DNA from: Pedobacter antarcticus
Lineage (GTDB): Bacteria; Bacteroidota; Bacteroidia; Sphingobacteriales; Sphingobacteriaceae
Length of the DNA: 64,000 bases
Assembly: GCF_900112985.1 (NCBI RefSeq)
Contig: NZ_FONS01000002.1
Coordinates: forward strand, 372,001-436,000
Direction of reading: 5' to 3'
The notes under the pieces were generated by a model. It did no database searches, was not told the DNA's origin, and worked only from the letters and a program-made list of their open reading frames with translations. Of this stretch, positions 36,071-40,676 are shown piece by piece (within the stretch, counting starts at the first letter, position 1; every line of letters begins with the position of its first letter). The position numbers and the translations under genes were made by a program.

Positions 36071-36691
36071 TTATTTCAGCTGTTCGTTTTCTTTTAAATC
36101 ATTTAACAGTGACTCAAGCTCAGATTTCACCTCGTCTATTTCAATAAGCTGCTTTTTATGTTTGTAATTCCTGCTCCATAATGTAATTCCTAAAAGATAG
36201 GAAGTTGTGATAGCCATTGCAGTGAAAGTGAACAGGAAACTGGCACCTTTAGTTATCTCAATAATGTAGATGGAAAAGGCAAACCATAATATCGTGTTAT
36301 AAATCCATATATAGACTGTGAGTGTTTTACGTTGCCATTGGATTTTCTGCAACTGGTGCCGGATAAAATCAATACTCGATTCACCTCTGTTCTCTTTTTT
36401 GAATGCGTAGCTTCGCCAGCTTACGAATAAGAAAACTATCATTGAGCAGTAAATTGCCGCAATGCTTAATTCGAATGGCCATTCATATTTACTCCGAAAA
36501 GTAAAGTACACCCAGCCGATTACCATTAGTGCCATTAGAAATCCAACGCTCATGCACATATTTGACCACAATACTTTACGTTGGTTCCGCTGCCATTTAT
36601 CAGGCAGCGCGGAATTAAGTGCTTCTTGCTTAACAGATGTGCTGACAGGCTGGGAAAGCCAGTTCTTTTGTAAATCTTCGAAATTTGTCAT
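36071..36691 (-). CDS. Membrane protein paired with ECF sigma factor, putative anti-sigma
   Basis: 206 residues. Soluble N terminus (about 1-40, NFEDLQKNWLSQP), then two membrane segments (about 46-66 and 75-95), a cytoplasmic loop with RHQLQKIQWQRKTL, two further segments (about 125-145 and 148-170) and a charged C-terminal helix with coiled-coil character. The start overlaps the sigma stop by 4 bp (ATGA), so it is translationally coupled to the sigma gene and most likely regulates it. No known domain recognised; role inferred from context. Confidence 0.75.
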   Translation of the reverse strand: MTNFEDLQKNWLSQPVSTSVKQEALNSALPDKWQRNQRKVLWSNMCMSVGFLMALMVIGWVYFTFRSKYEWPFELSIAAIYCSMIVFLFVSWRSYAFKKENRGESSIDFIRHQLQKIQWQRKTLTVYIWIYNTILWFAFSIYIIEITKGASFLFTFTAMAITTSYLLGITLWSRNYKHKKQLIEIDEVKSELESLLNDLKENEQLK

Positions 36692-37203
36692 GGCTTAATA
36701 GTCTCCATTAGATTAAGTAAACGACCTTTTATACGGTTAATTTTTACCCCTGTATTGCTCAAACTGCTACCGGTAATTTCTCCGATCTCTTTATAGCTTT
36801 TATTTTCCAGTACCAGTGAGATGATCAGCCGGTCCTGTGGAACTAGTTGACTAATACAGAAACGGAGTTTAATTAGCTGGGCTTCCTGTTCCTTTTTTTG
36901 CACCAGTGTATCCTGATAGGGGATTTGAAAAGATTCTGGTAAAGGCAAATGCTGATGGCGTTTGTTTTTGATATTATAACTAATCGCAGTGTTTACTGCG
37001 ATACGATATATCCAGGTACTGGCTTTTGCCTGTCCTTTGAAGTTCTTAAGTCCCTTCCAGGCCTGGTAGAGTATCTCCTGATACAAATCATCAGCATGAG
37101 AAATATCATACAGGTAAGCTCTGCAAATACGATATATGCTCGCATGATTTTCCCTGACCAGTTCGGAAAACAAATCTTGTTGTTGATTTAAAGTATTTTG
37201 CAC
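36688..37203 (-). CDS. ECF-type RNA polymerase sigma factor
   Basis: 171 residues from GTG 37203 (no ATG nearby). Region 2: FSELVRENHASIYRICRAYLYDISHADDLYQEILYQAWKGLKNF; region 4: LVPQDRLIISLVLENKSYKEIGEITGSSLSNTGVKINRIKGRL. It is not closely similar to the other ECF factor 1.5 kb away and has a different kind of membrane partner, so these are two independent modules facing each other. Upstream lies the 696-bp non-coding region with unusual repeats. Confidence 0.92.
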   Translation of the reverse strand: MQNTLNQQQDLFSELVRENHASIYRICRAYLYDISHADDLYQEILYQAWKGLKNFKGQAKASTWIYRIAVNTAISYNIKNKRHQHLPLPESFQIPYQDTLVQKKEQEAQLIKLRFCISQLVPQDRLIISLVLENKSYKEIGEITGSSLSNTGVKINRIKGRLLNLMETIKP

Positions 37204-37333
37204 AGCCAGATCCTATTTATTTATTCTTTGCTGTATTAGTCCGGGCAATATCGAATTTATTACAGTTGCTGCTGGATTATTTTCAATCATGGTAAACACG
37301 GTTTTGATGGGTTAACCCCAATTTGAATAAAAC

Positions 37334-37374
37334 GATACCCGACCAATACAGGAGCCATACGACCATAAAAAAGA
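37334..37374. repeat. Direct repeat copy 1
   Basis: Begins GATACCCGACCAATACAGG; identical to 37811-37838 over 28 bases, then two mismatches, then a shared CATAAAAAA. Copy 1 is followed by GAGGTCG, not by the PiT terminator stem. Confidence 0.85.
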
Positions 37375-37515
37375 GGTCGTGTCATTGATAATCTTAAGAG
37401 CTGCCTGTCCTAACCAGAAAGACATAACTTATATATTTTTGATTCATGCCAGCTGCCGTTCAGCATAAACATACACTTGTATCATTGCTTAAAGCAAACA
37501 GCCAAAAGTTGAGAT

Positions 37516-37536
37516 CTTACGTATTTCGAACGTAAG
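37516..37536. repeat. Small perfect hairpin
   Basis: CTTACGT (37516-37522), 7-nt loop, ACGTAAG (37530-37536). No T tract follows, so it is not an obvious terminator. Confidence 0.5.
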
Positions 37537-37590
37537 CATCTTTGGTTCCTTTATAACAGAGAAATTAGTTAGCTAGTTTTACGCTAAAAG

Positions 37591-37678
37591 GCTATTGAGT
37601 CGGTATTGATAGGGTGTTCAGTCGGTCATTGGGTATATCAACACCGACTGAACACCCTGTCAATACCGTATCAACACC
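37591..37678. repeat. Palindromic array of eight contiguous 11-bp units
   Basis: Four units read on the plus strand (GCTATTGAGTC, GGTATTGATAG, GGTGTTCAGTC, GGTCATTGGGT; 37591-37634) and four on the minus strand (from the centre outward GGTGTTGATAT, GGTGTTCAGTC, GGTATTGACAG, GGTGTTGATAC; 37645 to 37678). Consensus GGTRTTGANNN. The inner arms 37601-37626 and 37643-37668 form a 26-bp stem with one G-T pair. Confidence 0.85.
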
Positions 37679-37810
37679 ATTTTAACCTTTAACAATATCC
37701 GAGTTGTCCTATATTGGAATTAGTTTACAGTAAAAAAGTAAATTACTGATTAGTGTTTACATTAATAAGTGGTCTAATACAACCAACCGTTTTTAGATCG
37801 ATTGCCAAAT

Positions 37811-37850
37811 GATACCCGACCAATACAGGAGCCATACGGTCATAAAAAAA
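37811..37850. repeat. Direct repeat copy 2
   Basis: Second copy of the element at 37334, 477 bp away; its A tract is also the T tract of the PiT terminator on the minus strand. Confidence 0.85.
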
Positions 37851-37874
37851 GGGTATCCATAACTATGGACACCC
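37842..37874 (-). terminator. Terminator of the PiT gene
   Basis: GGGTATCCATA (37851-37861) pairs with TATGGACACCC (37864-37874) with one mismatch; a run of A on the plus side at 37844-37850 gives the T tract. Confidence 0.8.
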
Positions 37875-37899
37875 CTAATCAGGAAAACCTGTTTATTTT

Positions 37900-38910
37900 T
37901 TAAAAGAATAAGTGAATCACAGAAAAGATTAAAGCGGCAAGAGTTGCAGATACAGGGATGGTTAATACCCATGCCCAAAGTAAACTTACCGTTACACCCC
38001 AACGTACTGCAGAAACACGTTTAAGCAATCCTACACCTACAATGGAGCCAGTAATCGTATGGGTTGTAGATACAGGGATACCGAAATGCTCAGTGATACC
38101 CAGGGTTACAGCACCAGCAGTTTCAGCTGCTACACCTTCGAAGGCATTTACTTTAGTAATTTTGGAACCCATTGTTTTAACGATTTTCCAGCCACCACTC
38201 ATTGTTCCGAGTGAGATTGCGGCATAACAAGTAATAGGAATCCATTCAGGCATTGCATCACCTGTTTTCAGTACGTTTCCGGCAACCATGGCGACATAGA
38301 TGATACCCATTACTTTTTGAGCATCATTACCGCCATGCGTGAAACTTAAAGCTGCCGATGAAACCAGCTGTAATTTCTTAAACCAGTATTCAGCGACAGA
38401 TGGTCTTGCGTTCTTAGACAAATGCAACAGAATAATTGATATAATCACGGAGATTACCATACCAATAACTGGAGCAAGTACGATAAAGGCAACCACTTTC
38501 AGGATAGGGGCAAGATTAATAGCAGTCATAACACCTGCGCCCATTGACGCTGCTTTAGCCATACCAGCGCCGGCAAATCCACCAATTAGTGTATGAGATG
38601 AACTGGACGGTATACCATACCACCAGGTTAGCAGGTTCCAGAGAATTGCTGCGACCAGGCCCGAAAGAATCACCTCCAGGGTAATGAAGTTCTCCACTAC
38701 GGTTTTGGCTATTGTATTTGCAACTTTATGGTCTGTAAAATAGAAATATGCAGCAAAGTTGAAAATAGCCGCCCAAAGTACGGCTTGAAACGGGCTCAGG
38801 ACTTTTGTAGACACAACTGTGGCAATAGAGTTAGCCGCATCGTGAAAACCGTTGATATAATCAAAGGCAATAGCCAGGAAAATAACAACAATTAATAAGG
38901 TTGATACCAT
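37900..38910 (-). CDS. PiT-family inorganic phosphate transporter
   Basis: 336 residues with about ten membrane segments in two inverted halves. The family duplicates are visible: NGFHDAANSIATVVST at the N terminus and HGGNDAQKVMG in the middle, with SSSSHTLIGGFAGAG and STTHTITGSIVGVG as the paired re-entrant motifs. It moves phosphate with protons or sodium at low affinity. The DUF47/PhoU-like gene lies 12 nt upstream on the same strand, the standard Pit accessory arrangement. A terminator follows. Confidence 0.95.
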   Translation of the reverse strand: MVSTLLIVVIFLAIAFDYINGFHDAANSIATVVSTKVLSPFQAVLWAAIFNFAAYFYFTDHKVANTIAKTVVENFITLEVILSGLVAAILWNLLTWWYGIPSSSSHTLIGGFAGAGMAKAASMGAGVMTAINLAPILKVVAFIVLAPVIGMVISVIISIILLHLSKNARPSVAEYWFKKLQLVSSAALSFTHGGNDAQKVMGIIYVAMVAGNVLKTGDAMPEWIPITCYAAISLGTMSGGWKIVKTMGSKITKVNAFEGVAAETAGAVTLGITEHFGIPVSTTHTITGSIVGVGLLKRVSAVRWGVTVSLLWAWVLTIPVSATLAALIFSVIHLFF

Positions 38911-38922
38911 TTTTTAAATTTT

Positions 38923-39564
38923 TTAAGCGTTCTTAACCAAAATAGATTCCAGCACGTTAGCTGCATCCTCACATTTATCAGTAGCCATTTCCAGCGTTTG
39001 CAGGACTTCTTTTTGTTTAATCAGCTCAATTGCGTTGGTTTCGAATTCAAATAATCTTGCGATAGCCAGATTACACACATTGTCTGCCTGGTTTTCACCA
39101 CTATTAATTCTAACGCAGGCGTCAGCAATTACACGGATGTTTTTAAAGCTTCTCAATTCTTTGATCGCTTTTTCCAGGTCGGTACACATTTCTACAAGCA
39201 ATTCTGCCAGTTTAACCATGGCGTCACCAATGTTAGTGATCTGGTATAAATGGATATTACTTGCCGAAGCGTGGATATAATCTGCAATGTCATCTACTGC
39301 ACTGGCAAGGGCATGGATATCTTCCCTGTCAAAAGGAGTAATAAAATTCTTGCTGAGTTCCAGGAAGATTGAATGGGTGATATCATCACCCACGTGCTCT
39401 AAACGCTCGATTTCATCGATATGTTTTTTTCTCTCATCCAGATCTTTAGCGCTAACTGCAAGTAACAGTGCTTCAGAAATCTTTAATACATTACTTCCTG
39501 CCTGCTCAAACAGCGGTTGGAATTTCTTGTCTTTCGGGGTAAAGAACTTAAAAAGATTATTCAT
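38923..39564 (-). CDS. DUF47/PhoU-like accessory protein of the phosphate transporter
   Basis: 213 residues, all helical, cytoplasmic. The PhoU-like DUF47 fold is recognisable from LERLEHVGDDITHSIFLEL-like (here IERLEHVGDDITHSIF), FITPFDREDIHALASAVDDIADYI and the C-terminal ATDKCEDAANVLESILVKNA, where the Asp/Glu clusters bind metal. It modulates the PiT transporter encoded 12 nt downstream. A perfect -7 box (39585-39592) starts this operon. Confidence 0.94.
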   Translation of the reverse strand: MNNLFKFFTPKDKKFQPLFEQAGSNVLKISEALLLAVSAKDLDERKKHIDEIERLEHVGDDITHSIFLELSKNFITPFDREDIHALASAVDDIADYIHASASNIHLYQITNIGDAMVKLAELLVEMCTDLEKAIKELRSFKNIRVIADACVRINSGENQADNVCNLAIARLFEFETNAIELIKQKEVLQTLEMATDKCEDAANVLESILVKNA

Positions 39565-39584
39565 GCTAACTAATAAATATGCTA

Positions 39585-39592
39585 CAAAAGTA
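39585..39592 (-). promoter_or_regulatory. -7 box TACTTTTG of the DUF47-PiT operon
   Basis: Exact TAnnTTTG on the minus strand, 20 nt before the ATG at 39564. Confidence 0.55.
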
Positions 39593-39650
39593 GGATCGCA
39601 ATGTTAAGTTAGTGTTAAGTGTTAACATAAAAACCATATTTTTTTAAAAA

Positions 39651-40676
39651 CTACCCTCCTTTTTCTAAGGTGAATGCGAAGGTGGTACCAATTTGTAAAG
39701 TACTTCTTACAGAGATAATTTGCTCATGAGCCTCCAGAATATGTTTCACAATTGCCAGACCGAGTCCTGTGCCACCTACTTCTCTGGACCGGTGAGAGTC
39801 AATTCTATAAAATCTTTCGAACAATCGCGGCAGGTGTTTTTCATCGATTCCGATACCATCATCAGTAACTTCAATCAGAAACTGATCATGGAGTTCAAAT
39901 ATTTTAAGAGAGGTAGATCCATTTTCCTTGCTGTATTTCATTGAATTAGAAATCAAGTTAATAAGTACTTGACGGATCTTTTCCCGGTCAGCCCTGACAA
40001 AGGCAGGGTGCATATATTTATCCTTGAAGAATAGTTTGATACCACGTTTTTTTGCTTTGTCTTCCATTGATTCCATCACTTCCTTCGTCAACAAAACGAT
40101 ATCAAATTTTTCGTAATTAATTGGAATTTCGCCAGTCTCAAGTTTCGAAATAGAATCCAGATCATTGATCAGGTAACTCAGGCGTTCTACATTATTCTCT
40201 GCTTTCTGCAGGAACCTCACTGCAGTTTCCGGATCATCGATCAGGCAATCCTTTAGCGTCTCGATATAACCCTGTATTGCAAAAAGCGGAGTTTTAAATT
40301 CGTGAGAGACGTTAGATAGAAATTCCCGTCTGAACTGTTCTTGCTTTTTAAGCAGTTCAATCTCATTTTTTTTGGCTCCTGCCCATTCTTTCACTTCATG
40401 CTCCACATCATTAATCGGATCGGAACTCACATATTCTCCCAAGGCATCCTTCAGATCTTTACCGAGCTTGAGATTGTGTATGAGCTTGTAGATCAGCTTG
40501 ATTTTAGAATAGATGAATTTTTCGAGCAGGTAATAAAATAAGATGAAACTGGTCGCAAAGGAGATCCCGAAGGAGACCAGCATAAAATACCAGCTCTGTT
40601 GAAAATGGAAATTTACAAGCCCGATCGACAGGCCTACCGCCAGTGCGGTGATTAAAACCAGGATACTTAATTTCAT
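39651..40676 (-). CDS. Sensor histidine kinase, PhoR-like
   Basis: 341 residues. Two membrane segments (about 5-22 and 30-53) with almost no periplasmic loop, a short linker, HisKA with His125 in SNVSHEFKTPLFAIQGYIETL, and HATPase_c with N box NLISNSMKYS, G1 DDGIGI, and G2 GGTGLGLAIVK. No HAMP or PAS. The H-box resembles PhoR kinases and the next genes on this strand are DUF47 and PiT, so phosphate sensing is plausible. No response regulator is adjacent; its partner must be elsewhere. 86 bp and a promoter separate it from DUF47, so it is not simply co-transcribed. Confidence 0.9.
   Translation of the reverse strand: MKLSILVLITALAVGLSIGLVNFHFQQSWYFMLVSFGISFATSFILFYYLLEKFIYSKIKLIYKLIHNLKLGKDLKDALGEYVSSDPINDVEHEVKEWAGAKKNEIELLKKQEQFRREFLSNVSHEFKTPLFAIQGYIETLKDCLIDDPETAVRFLQKAENNVERLSYLINDLDSISKLETGEIPINYEKFDIVLLTKEVMESMEDKAKKRGIKLFFKDKYMHPAFVRADREKIRQVLINLISNSMKYSKENGSTSLKIFELHDQFLIEVTDDGIGIDEKHLPRLFERFYRIDSHRSREVGGTGLGLAIVKHILEAHEQIISVRSTLQIGTTFAFTLEKGG

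Follow-up and report, generated by a model that had tools for sequence, protein, structure and literature searches.

The palindrome studied here belongs to a real, dispersed palindromic element whose nearest kin are MITE/REP-like repeats and whose architecture is both unusual and repeatable. It was found in a 64-kb stretch of the Pedobacter antarcticus genome (G000:C14:372001-436000), the whole of which is called the window. Directly observed were the dispersal of the element, flanks shared between copies, absence of the element from some orthologous gaps, a difference of one 11-bp unit and the re-use of loci by unlike arrays. As a whole, the material is best read as a set of non-autonomous dispersed elements, built of phased sites, that re-use the same gaps, and we regard this reading as probable.

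The palindrome and its gap

Eight 11-mers tile 37591-37678 without a gap, four per strand and with the junction at 37634/37635, and the unit listing of the window thereby confirmed the arrangement given in the initial annotation. In order, the plus-arm units are GCTATTGAGTC, GGTATTGATAG, GGTGTTCAGTC and GGTCATTGGGT, and the minus-arm units, when reverse-complemented, are GGTGTTGATAT, GGTGTTCAGTC, GGTATTGACAG and GGTGTTGATAC. The third unit from the outside is the same in both arms, as had been claimed, and overall the two arms are identical at 33 of 44 positions. The proposed consensus GGTRTTGANNN holds as a type, with units 1 and 4 deviating from it. The tiling score amounted to 66 at this place, compared to 53 at the second-best place in the window and to 52-53 at most in five Markov-1 random windows. 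When the palindrome was folded as a single strand and compared with shuffled sequences, z values of -10.3 as DNA and of -10.95 as RNA were obtained, and an inner stem of 26 pairs, corresponding to the 26-bp inner arms described earlier, appears in the predicted fold. The inverted repeat exceeds its earlier description and reaches 37576-37693 rather than 37591-37678, and the match between the window and other genomic copies extends over 37564-37737 at maximum. A pitch of 11 bp brings the sites to roughly one face of negatively supercoiled DNA, and in A-form RNA it sets them one turn apart. By eye, no run of five T residues directly follows the palindrome on either strand, and a terminator scan of the gap (loops of 3-8) gave two terminator-like sites, the palindrome not being one of them. 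An Rfam search of 37200-38000 gave five matches, all far under the gathering score, and thus no structured RNA family.

The non-coding gap that holds the palindrome (37204-37899) spans about 0.7 kb, in a window of which 8% falls outside ORFs of at least 100 aa. On one side, the ECF sigma gene reported earlier is real and occupies 36688-37203 (-). On the other side, genes for a pit phosphate transporter, a DUF47 PhoU-like protein and a histidine kinase follow in a row (37900-40676). Pho boxes likewise have 11-bp units. The other 12 copies of the palindrome have no pit, PhoU-like or kinase genes nearby, as far as flanking frames were recognisable by eye.

In the window copy, the mntA fragment has displaced the remaining left flank of the element. 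This fragment is 93% identical to the intact gene at another locus, L030 (L030:2174-2837), where an intact mntA-hepT pair and a 289-aa ORF without any Pfam match precede a further copy of the palindrome. The 48-bp direct repeats around the stretch correspond by eye to a single stretch in G051 (taken as P. cryoconitis Xaverov 94), which among the genomes of the genus set is nearest to P. antarcticus (pit locus 92% identical, the next reaching 79%). They are a target duplication of exceptional length or else a scar left by recombination. The features of the gap are collected in Table 1.

Table 1. Features in and around the palindrome (positions in the window).
Feature	Position	Strand	Basis or remark
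48-bp direct repeat, left copy, flanking the stretch that holds the palindrome	37330..37377	+	repeat analysis
5' fragment of MntA-type nucleotidyltransferase (antitoxin-like) gene	37434..37567	+	directly before palindrome
Short left flank common to other subfamily A copies	37564..37575	+	pairwise copy matches
Imperfect palindrome, full extent, 118 bp, 16-nt centre	37576..37693	.	repeat analysis, DNA and RNA folds
Four plus-orientation units of 11 bp, GGTRTTGANNN type	37591..37634	+	repeat analysis and unit listing
Four minus-orientation units of 11 bp	37635..37678	-	repeat analysis and unit listing
Right flank common to other copies	37694..37737	+	pairwise copy matches
48-bp direct repeat, right copy, 90% identical, overlapping the pit terminator	37807..37854	+	repeat analysis
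Intrinsic terminator-like hairpin of pit gene	37849..37876	-	terminator scan

Copies in the genome and their orthologous loci

A blastn search with the palindrome revealed 13 places in the 4.57-Mb genome of P. antarcticus (E of 1.7e-6 or better). A pattern of three units, allowing up to 3 mismatches, gave 45 matches, all of them inside these 13 places, and the reversed pattern used as control gave 0. Scattered intergenic copies, for which the initial annotation had proposed a search, therefore exist and fit its option of a mobile palindromic element. Eight copies (the window copy and L030-L036) have sequence in common beyond the palindrome and are referred to as subfamily A. For the window copy, the shared left flank is cut down to 8-12 bp by the mntA fragment, and the shared right flank comprises 8-44 bp, where the match runs to about 37701-37711 with L030-L034, to 37731 with L036 and to 37737 with L035; the pair L031/L032 has up to 277 bp in common. 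The remaining five copies (L037-L041) align with subfamily A chiefly in the core. L035 and L036 carry one extra unit each, and the centre of L036 is by eye inverted relative to its flanks. In the fuller copies the element is about 175-280 bp long. Judged from the longest reading frames, five of the 13 copies lie in convergent, five in tandem and three in divergent gaps, and subfamily A copies adjoin unlike genes.

A left end could be read in six copies (L031, L032, L034, L035, L036 and L108 of G051), and in five of these the element begins right at the T tract of a terminator-like stem or only a few bases from it (a raw count, by eye); the left end of L034 is preceded by TTTT only. Direct repeats around the element differ between loci, being 9 bp long at L034, absent at L031 and 48 bp long in the window. 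Inspection by eye of the aligned copies and of the comparisons for L031 and L034 revealed no terminal inverted repeats. The 9-bp repeats at L034 flank a stretch of 446 bp (L034:2429-2874) that is absent from G051 and holds the palindrome together with a C-terminal fragment of an IS1182-type transposase. IS1182 was rejected as parent of the element because full IS1182-type genes of P. antarcticus and of G051 share nothing with it.

In G051, orthologs were traced for 11 of the 13 loci, the query pieces of L035 and L037 matching none. The palindrome is kept at three loci (L036, L039 and L041), the flanks are directly joined at two (L031 and L034), and other sequence without an array is present at two (L030 and L032). 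At three further loci G051 has a palindrome of unlike letters whose best lag is 11, with lag-11 identities of 0.51 (L033), 0.58 (L038) and 0.62 (L040). The gap corresponding to that of the window lacks the palindrome and holds a weak 11-bp array (0.51) and a CAAX-protease-like gene (Rce1-like). The palindrome is therefore missing at 8 of 11 traced loci when unlike arrays are counted as absence. Like MITEs, the element is short, non-coding, dispersed and missing at orthologous sites in a close relative. The insert at L031 also carries other sequence, so insert ends are not clean element ends. Where the palindrome is kept, the arrays of L041 and of its G051 ortholog L099 align with a single gap, which is exactly 11 bp long. 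Across the genus, the three-unit pattern at up to 2 mismatches occurs in 10 of 145 genomes, P. antarcticus included, with 37 matches in the latter and 1-6 in each of the nine others; a backward control pattern gave one match in total over the 145 genomes.

Arrays of the same pitch with other letters

A periodicity scan that is free of any motif (77-bp windows, identity of at least 0.53, ORFs of 100 aa masked) was applied to 1.6 Mb from P. antarcticus contig C17 and from G051, G049, G153, G074 and G128. At lag 11, 19 non-coding regions were detected (6, 7, 1, 0, 2 and 3, respectively), of which at least two, C17:187766 and a region of G074, look like chance matches in AT-rich sequence, whereas each other lag from 8 to 25 gave 0-3 regions in total, with the exception of the harmonic 22 with 8. 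A looser scan (66 bp, 0.50) gave 9 regions at lag 11 versus 0-4 at other lags in C17 and 9 versus 0-7 in G051, and no clear lag-11 excess in G049 and G153. In the 64-kb window, lag 11 gave no region at the strict and one at the looser setting, and contig C13 of P. antarcticus (340 kb, unmasked) contained 3 regions at lag 11 versus 0-1 at others. The unit families of these arrays include GGTRTTGANNN, GGGTATNNCAA, GTGGGTNNNNT, TTCGGACTTCC and TTGTTCGGGTC, and several unlike families coexist in one genome. Also, several arrays are palindromic, and in C17 three of four palindromes (at least 66 bp, score 22) have 11 as their best lag. At L087 (G053:C1:1237835), a palindrome with lag 11 (0.62) spans about 167 bp and reads as some 15-18 units, the letters of which shift from one end of an arm to the other. 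At G051:C22:188141-190366 (L200), arrays of one family flank two IS3-like genes, which encode an rve integrase core protein and an HTH protein.

The gap that holds copy L040 was followed through the genus. Its neighbours are a calcineurin-like phosphoesterase gene and a YfhO-like gene, the latter matching Pfam YfhO with 27.8 bits, slightly below the cut-off of 28.5. It was taken from 70 of 138 matching genomes, a non-random set of the 30 best matches and 40 picked for usable contigs; 17 loci were dropped as the upstream YfhO ortholog was not found, and in the 53 kept the promoter end was trimmed. An array of at least 0.53 at lag 11 was present in 11 of these 53 species, or in 11 of 36 gaps of at least 150 bp, and among the other lags from 7 to 16 only lag 8 and lag 15 occurred, once each. 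This count stands in place of the figure of lag 11 being best in 20 of 30 loci, which is inflated by a conserved promoter motif. The units in this gap are TTGATACGGTG in P. antarcticus, TTGCGATACCC in G051, TTGAAACGGGG in G074, TTGAACCGGGG in G013 and G050, TTGAACTAGGG or similar in G147 and G019, CGTCCTTTAGC in G098, TTGTTCGGAGA in G024 and TTCGTCTCTGG in G049; the array of G018 is irregular by eye. Arrays with the TTGANNNGG theme may be one array altered in place, and others look unrelated.

Beyond the genus, an exact pattern scan of species genomes gave 41 stretches, 2 of them in Pedobacter; the other 39 read mostly as short tandem arrays, some within long open frames. Other phyla, too, have plain tandem arrays of 11 bp in which the core letters recur, from which nothing is concluded here, and in viral contigs the three-unit pattern occurs in 6 stretches that read as simple head-to-tail 11-bp arrays. 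In plasmid and phage collections, window positions 37391-37740 gave no blastn match at 1e-3. Three Bacteroidales contigs found by motif (L125, L138 and L145) contain intergenic-looking 11-bp arrays that go beyond a plain tandem unit, a second 11-bp unit type following in L138 and L145 and inverted stretches being present in L125 and L145, which is a hint that the class may extend beyond Pedobacter.

Constraint on the units and competing explanations

Over the 88 units of class 1, information content is 1.0-2.0 bits at each of the eight core positions and 0.46-0.72 at the three of the spacer. Stronger conservation of a core of 7-8 positions is seen in three unit families, a pattern that is partly built in since the units were chosen by their core. 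In an alignment of 13 rows made without a core filter, invariant columns, as read from its list, fall almost only at core positions. These rows consisted of 11 P. antarcticus copies (L035 and L036 with their extra unit being excluded) and two G051 copies trimmed at one end, which leaves 11-13 rows per pair, and they showed no hairpin covariation beyond shuffling, as 353 of 500 shuffles reached the observed number of pair changes on both sides. A constraint on the site motif is therefore better supported than one on base pairing. Together with the pitch of one turn per 11 bp, the constraint on the core motif leads us to infer that some reader encounters the sites in phase; the pitch may, however, have arisen by mutation alone.

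One rival explanation is change in place, according to which each locus holds an old palindromic minisatellite that evolves by slippage of 11-bp units and by template switching from arm to arm, and most loci need no mobility. Three comparisons are in agreement with it: C17:255733 of P. antarcticus and G051:C22:272066 have the same flanks and genes, with units changed in both arms and the hairpin kept (by eye); four species (G147, G019, G013 and G050) have a TTGAAC-type unit in common at the yfhO locus, with drifted letters; and L041 and L099 differ by exactly 11 bp. However, change in place leaves unexplained both the eight copies with common flanks beside unlike genes and the orthologous gaps without any array, and the covariation no better than shuffled also argues against it. 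As a general explanation we consider it rather unlikely.

Alternatively, the arrays might serve the host as sites of a chromosome-organising or regulatory protein that binds every 11 bp and whose specificity shifts between lineages, letters turning over while spacing is kept. PhoB/OmpR-type regulators and ParR bind once per 11 bp, and the parC iterons of plasmid R1 (ParR) and pho boxes (PhoB) are tandem arrays of 11-bp sites. Like the Pedobacter arrays, they have a short core every 11 bp on one helix face; in contrast, they run head-to-tail, are tied to particular operons or a plasmid and have a constant sequence, whereas the Pedobacter arrays have two opposed halves, are dispersed and fall into several unit families. 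The pattern of core plus spacer in three unit families (with core-selected units), with which the architectural site suggested in the initial annotation would be compatible, the re-use of the yfhO locus across species with different letters, and the three copies in divergent gaps, two of which (L039 and L041) are kept in G051, would suit a role for the host. Against it stand the mixed gene context of the 13 copies, the window copy not being conserved in G051 and several unlike unit families within one genome, and we judge such a role to be unlikely.

Of the three options offered initially, the mobile palindromic one fits best, and the multi-site operator fails. With some 390 bp between it and the start of the downstream sigma gene, the palindrome is placed as an operator of this gene (or of pit) might be, yet it is absent from the gap of G051 with sigma and pit genes in place, and twelve further copies lie beside other genes. 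On the pit side, no array of at least 0.53 at lag 11 was found in 10 further species, and the sigma gene itself is located elsewhere, not beside pit, in at least G153, G019 and G146. An operator function is therefore very improbable.

Mobilisation as a REP/REPIN by a RAYT (Y1, TnpA-REP) transposase is scarcely tenable. The element is dispersed, palindromic and intergenic, and Bacteroidetes RAYTs of subclass 2.6 are described, in the part of the source consulted, as flanked by atypical secondary structures (PMC6006769). Nevertheless, Y1_Tnp (PF01797) has 0 matches in P. antarcticus, and the 82 of 145 genomes in which it does match include neither any of the 10 that hold the three-unit pattern nor any of the 11 whose yfhO locus carries an array. 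A set of 20 RAYT-like loci from 19 genomes was assembled from weaker Y1 matches with long open frames; the frames read in six loci contain NH[FV]H and HxNP motifs by eye, and one of the 20, L393, is cut by a contig end. None of the 20 has a lag-11 array of at least 0.53, and lag 11 was best in one, an AT-rich stretch at 0.50. Similarly, lag 11 was best in none of the 30 best Y1 loci; judging by four frames that were read, these loci resemble Y1 types other than RAYT. G128 is a counter-example, having both Y1 genes and three lag-11 regions, so that presence or absence of Y1 is no strict rule and may reflect clade. Altogether, Y1 being absent in pattern genomes and RAYT-like loci being without strong lag-11 arrays, a strict REP with RAYT is not supported. 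Six RAYT-like loci of other Pedobacter (L381, L389, L390, L391, L394 and L396) have palindromes of their own, for example of GGATTTGCAATCCCGAC and GTCGTAGCGTCTCGCTACGAC types, which are probably their REPs. A profile search with PF01797 and PF13751 found no transposase owning the arrays.

The element shares with REP/REPIN and RAYT systems that it consists of dispersed, non-coding, intergenic palindromes in lineage-specific families, but REP/REPINs are short hairpins, whereas the Pedobacter core comprises about 90-120 bp of 11-bp units, and they go with RAYTs, whereas the 10 pattern-bearing genomes lack Y1 and RAYT-like loci of the genus carry other palindromes. From the same phylum, the BrickBuilt MITE of Porphyromonas gingivalis, as far as the consulted part of its description goes, is likewise intergenic and made of tandem internal repeats, with 18-19 copies per strain, predicted long stem loops, a repeat number that varies between strains, and, for 10 of 19 copies, rho-independent terminators and/or polyadenylation sites predicted nearby (PMC4596501). 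BrickBuilt differs by its 23-nt direct repeats, leader and tail, and IS5-like terminal inverted repeats (PMC4596501), whereas the Pedobacter element has 11-bp units, two opposed halves and no terminal inverted repeats seen. PINSR of Prevotella intermedia is, according to the consulted part of its description, also a lineage-specific, dispersed, intergenic and probably non-coding repeat of Bacteroidetes without terminal inverted repeats, but it is a 188-bp repeat with 177-184 copies for which that part describes no 11-bp pitch (PMC4755523). In the literature searches, judged by titles and abstract openings, no description of 11-bp palindromic arrays in Bacteroidetes was found.

According to our preferred reading of non-autonomous dispersed elements, the palindrome would be the core of an element present 13 times in its own genome, and this core would be an array of 7-8-bp sites, one per 11-bp helical turn, whose two halves face each other. 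Several families of these elements, unlike in their units, alike in the 11-bp pitch and in many cases palindromic, would have spread in Pedobacter, gaining and losing whole units and resettling in the same gaps, in some cases right after an intrinsic terminator. A trans-acting enzyme or a DNA/RNA-binding protein presumably reads the phased sites, and the element would be mostly selfish. Points against this reading are that terminal inverted repeats were not seen, that the repeats around the element are inconsistent between loci, that the profile searches gave no transposase owning the arrays, that choosing units by their core inflates its conservation, and that arrays also occur in G128, which has Y1 genes.

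The dispersed arrays suggest that a type of small DNA element, mobile or read by a protein, has so far gone unrecognised. Most surprising is that pitch and place are conserved while letters are not. It is by sequence that most dispersed bacterial repeats are recognised. Since unlike sequences at one locus keep the spacing of one turn, the class escapes searches by sequence but shows up in a scan for periodicity. We tentatively raise the possibility that a class of DNA elements is defined by architecture, with 11-bp pitch, dyad symmetry and gap conserved and unit letters free between species. Such a class might be read by a filament protein or transposition machine that places one subunit per helical turn and has a fast-changing sequence preference, or it might be the product of replication that proceeds by copying one turn at a time. 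A protein that reads the pitch, should there be one, would represent a novel type of mobilising enzyme or of binder acting across the genome, and this in genomes without the usual candidate; if none does, the arrays would provide a clear natural case of turnover in hairpins and units.
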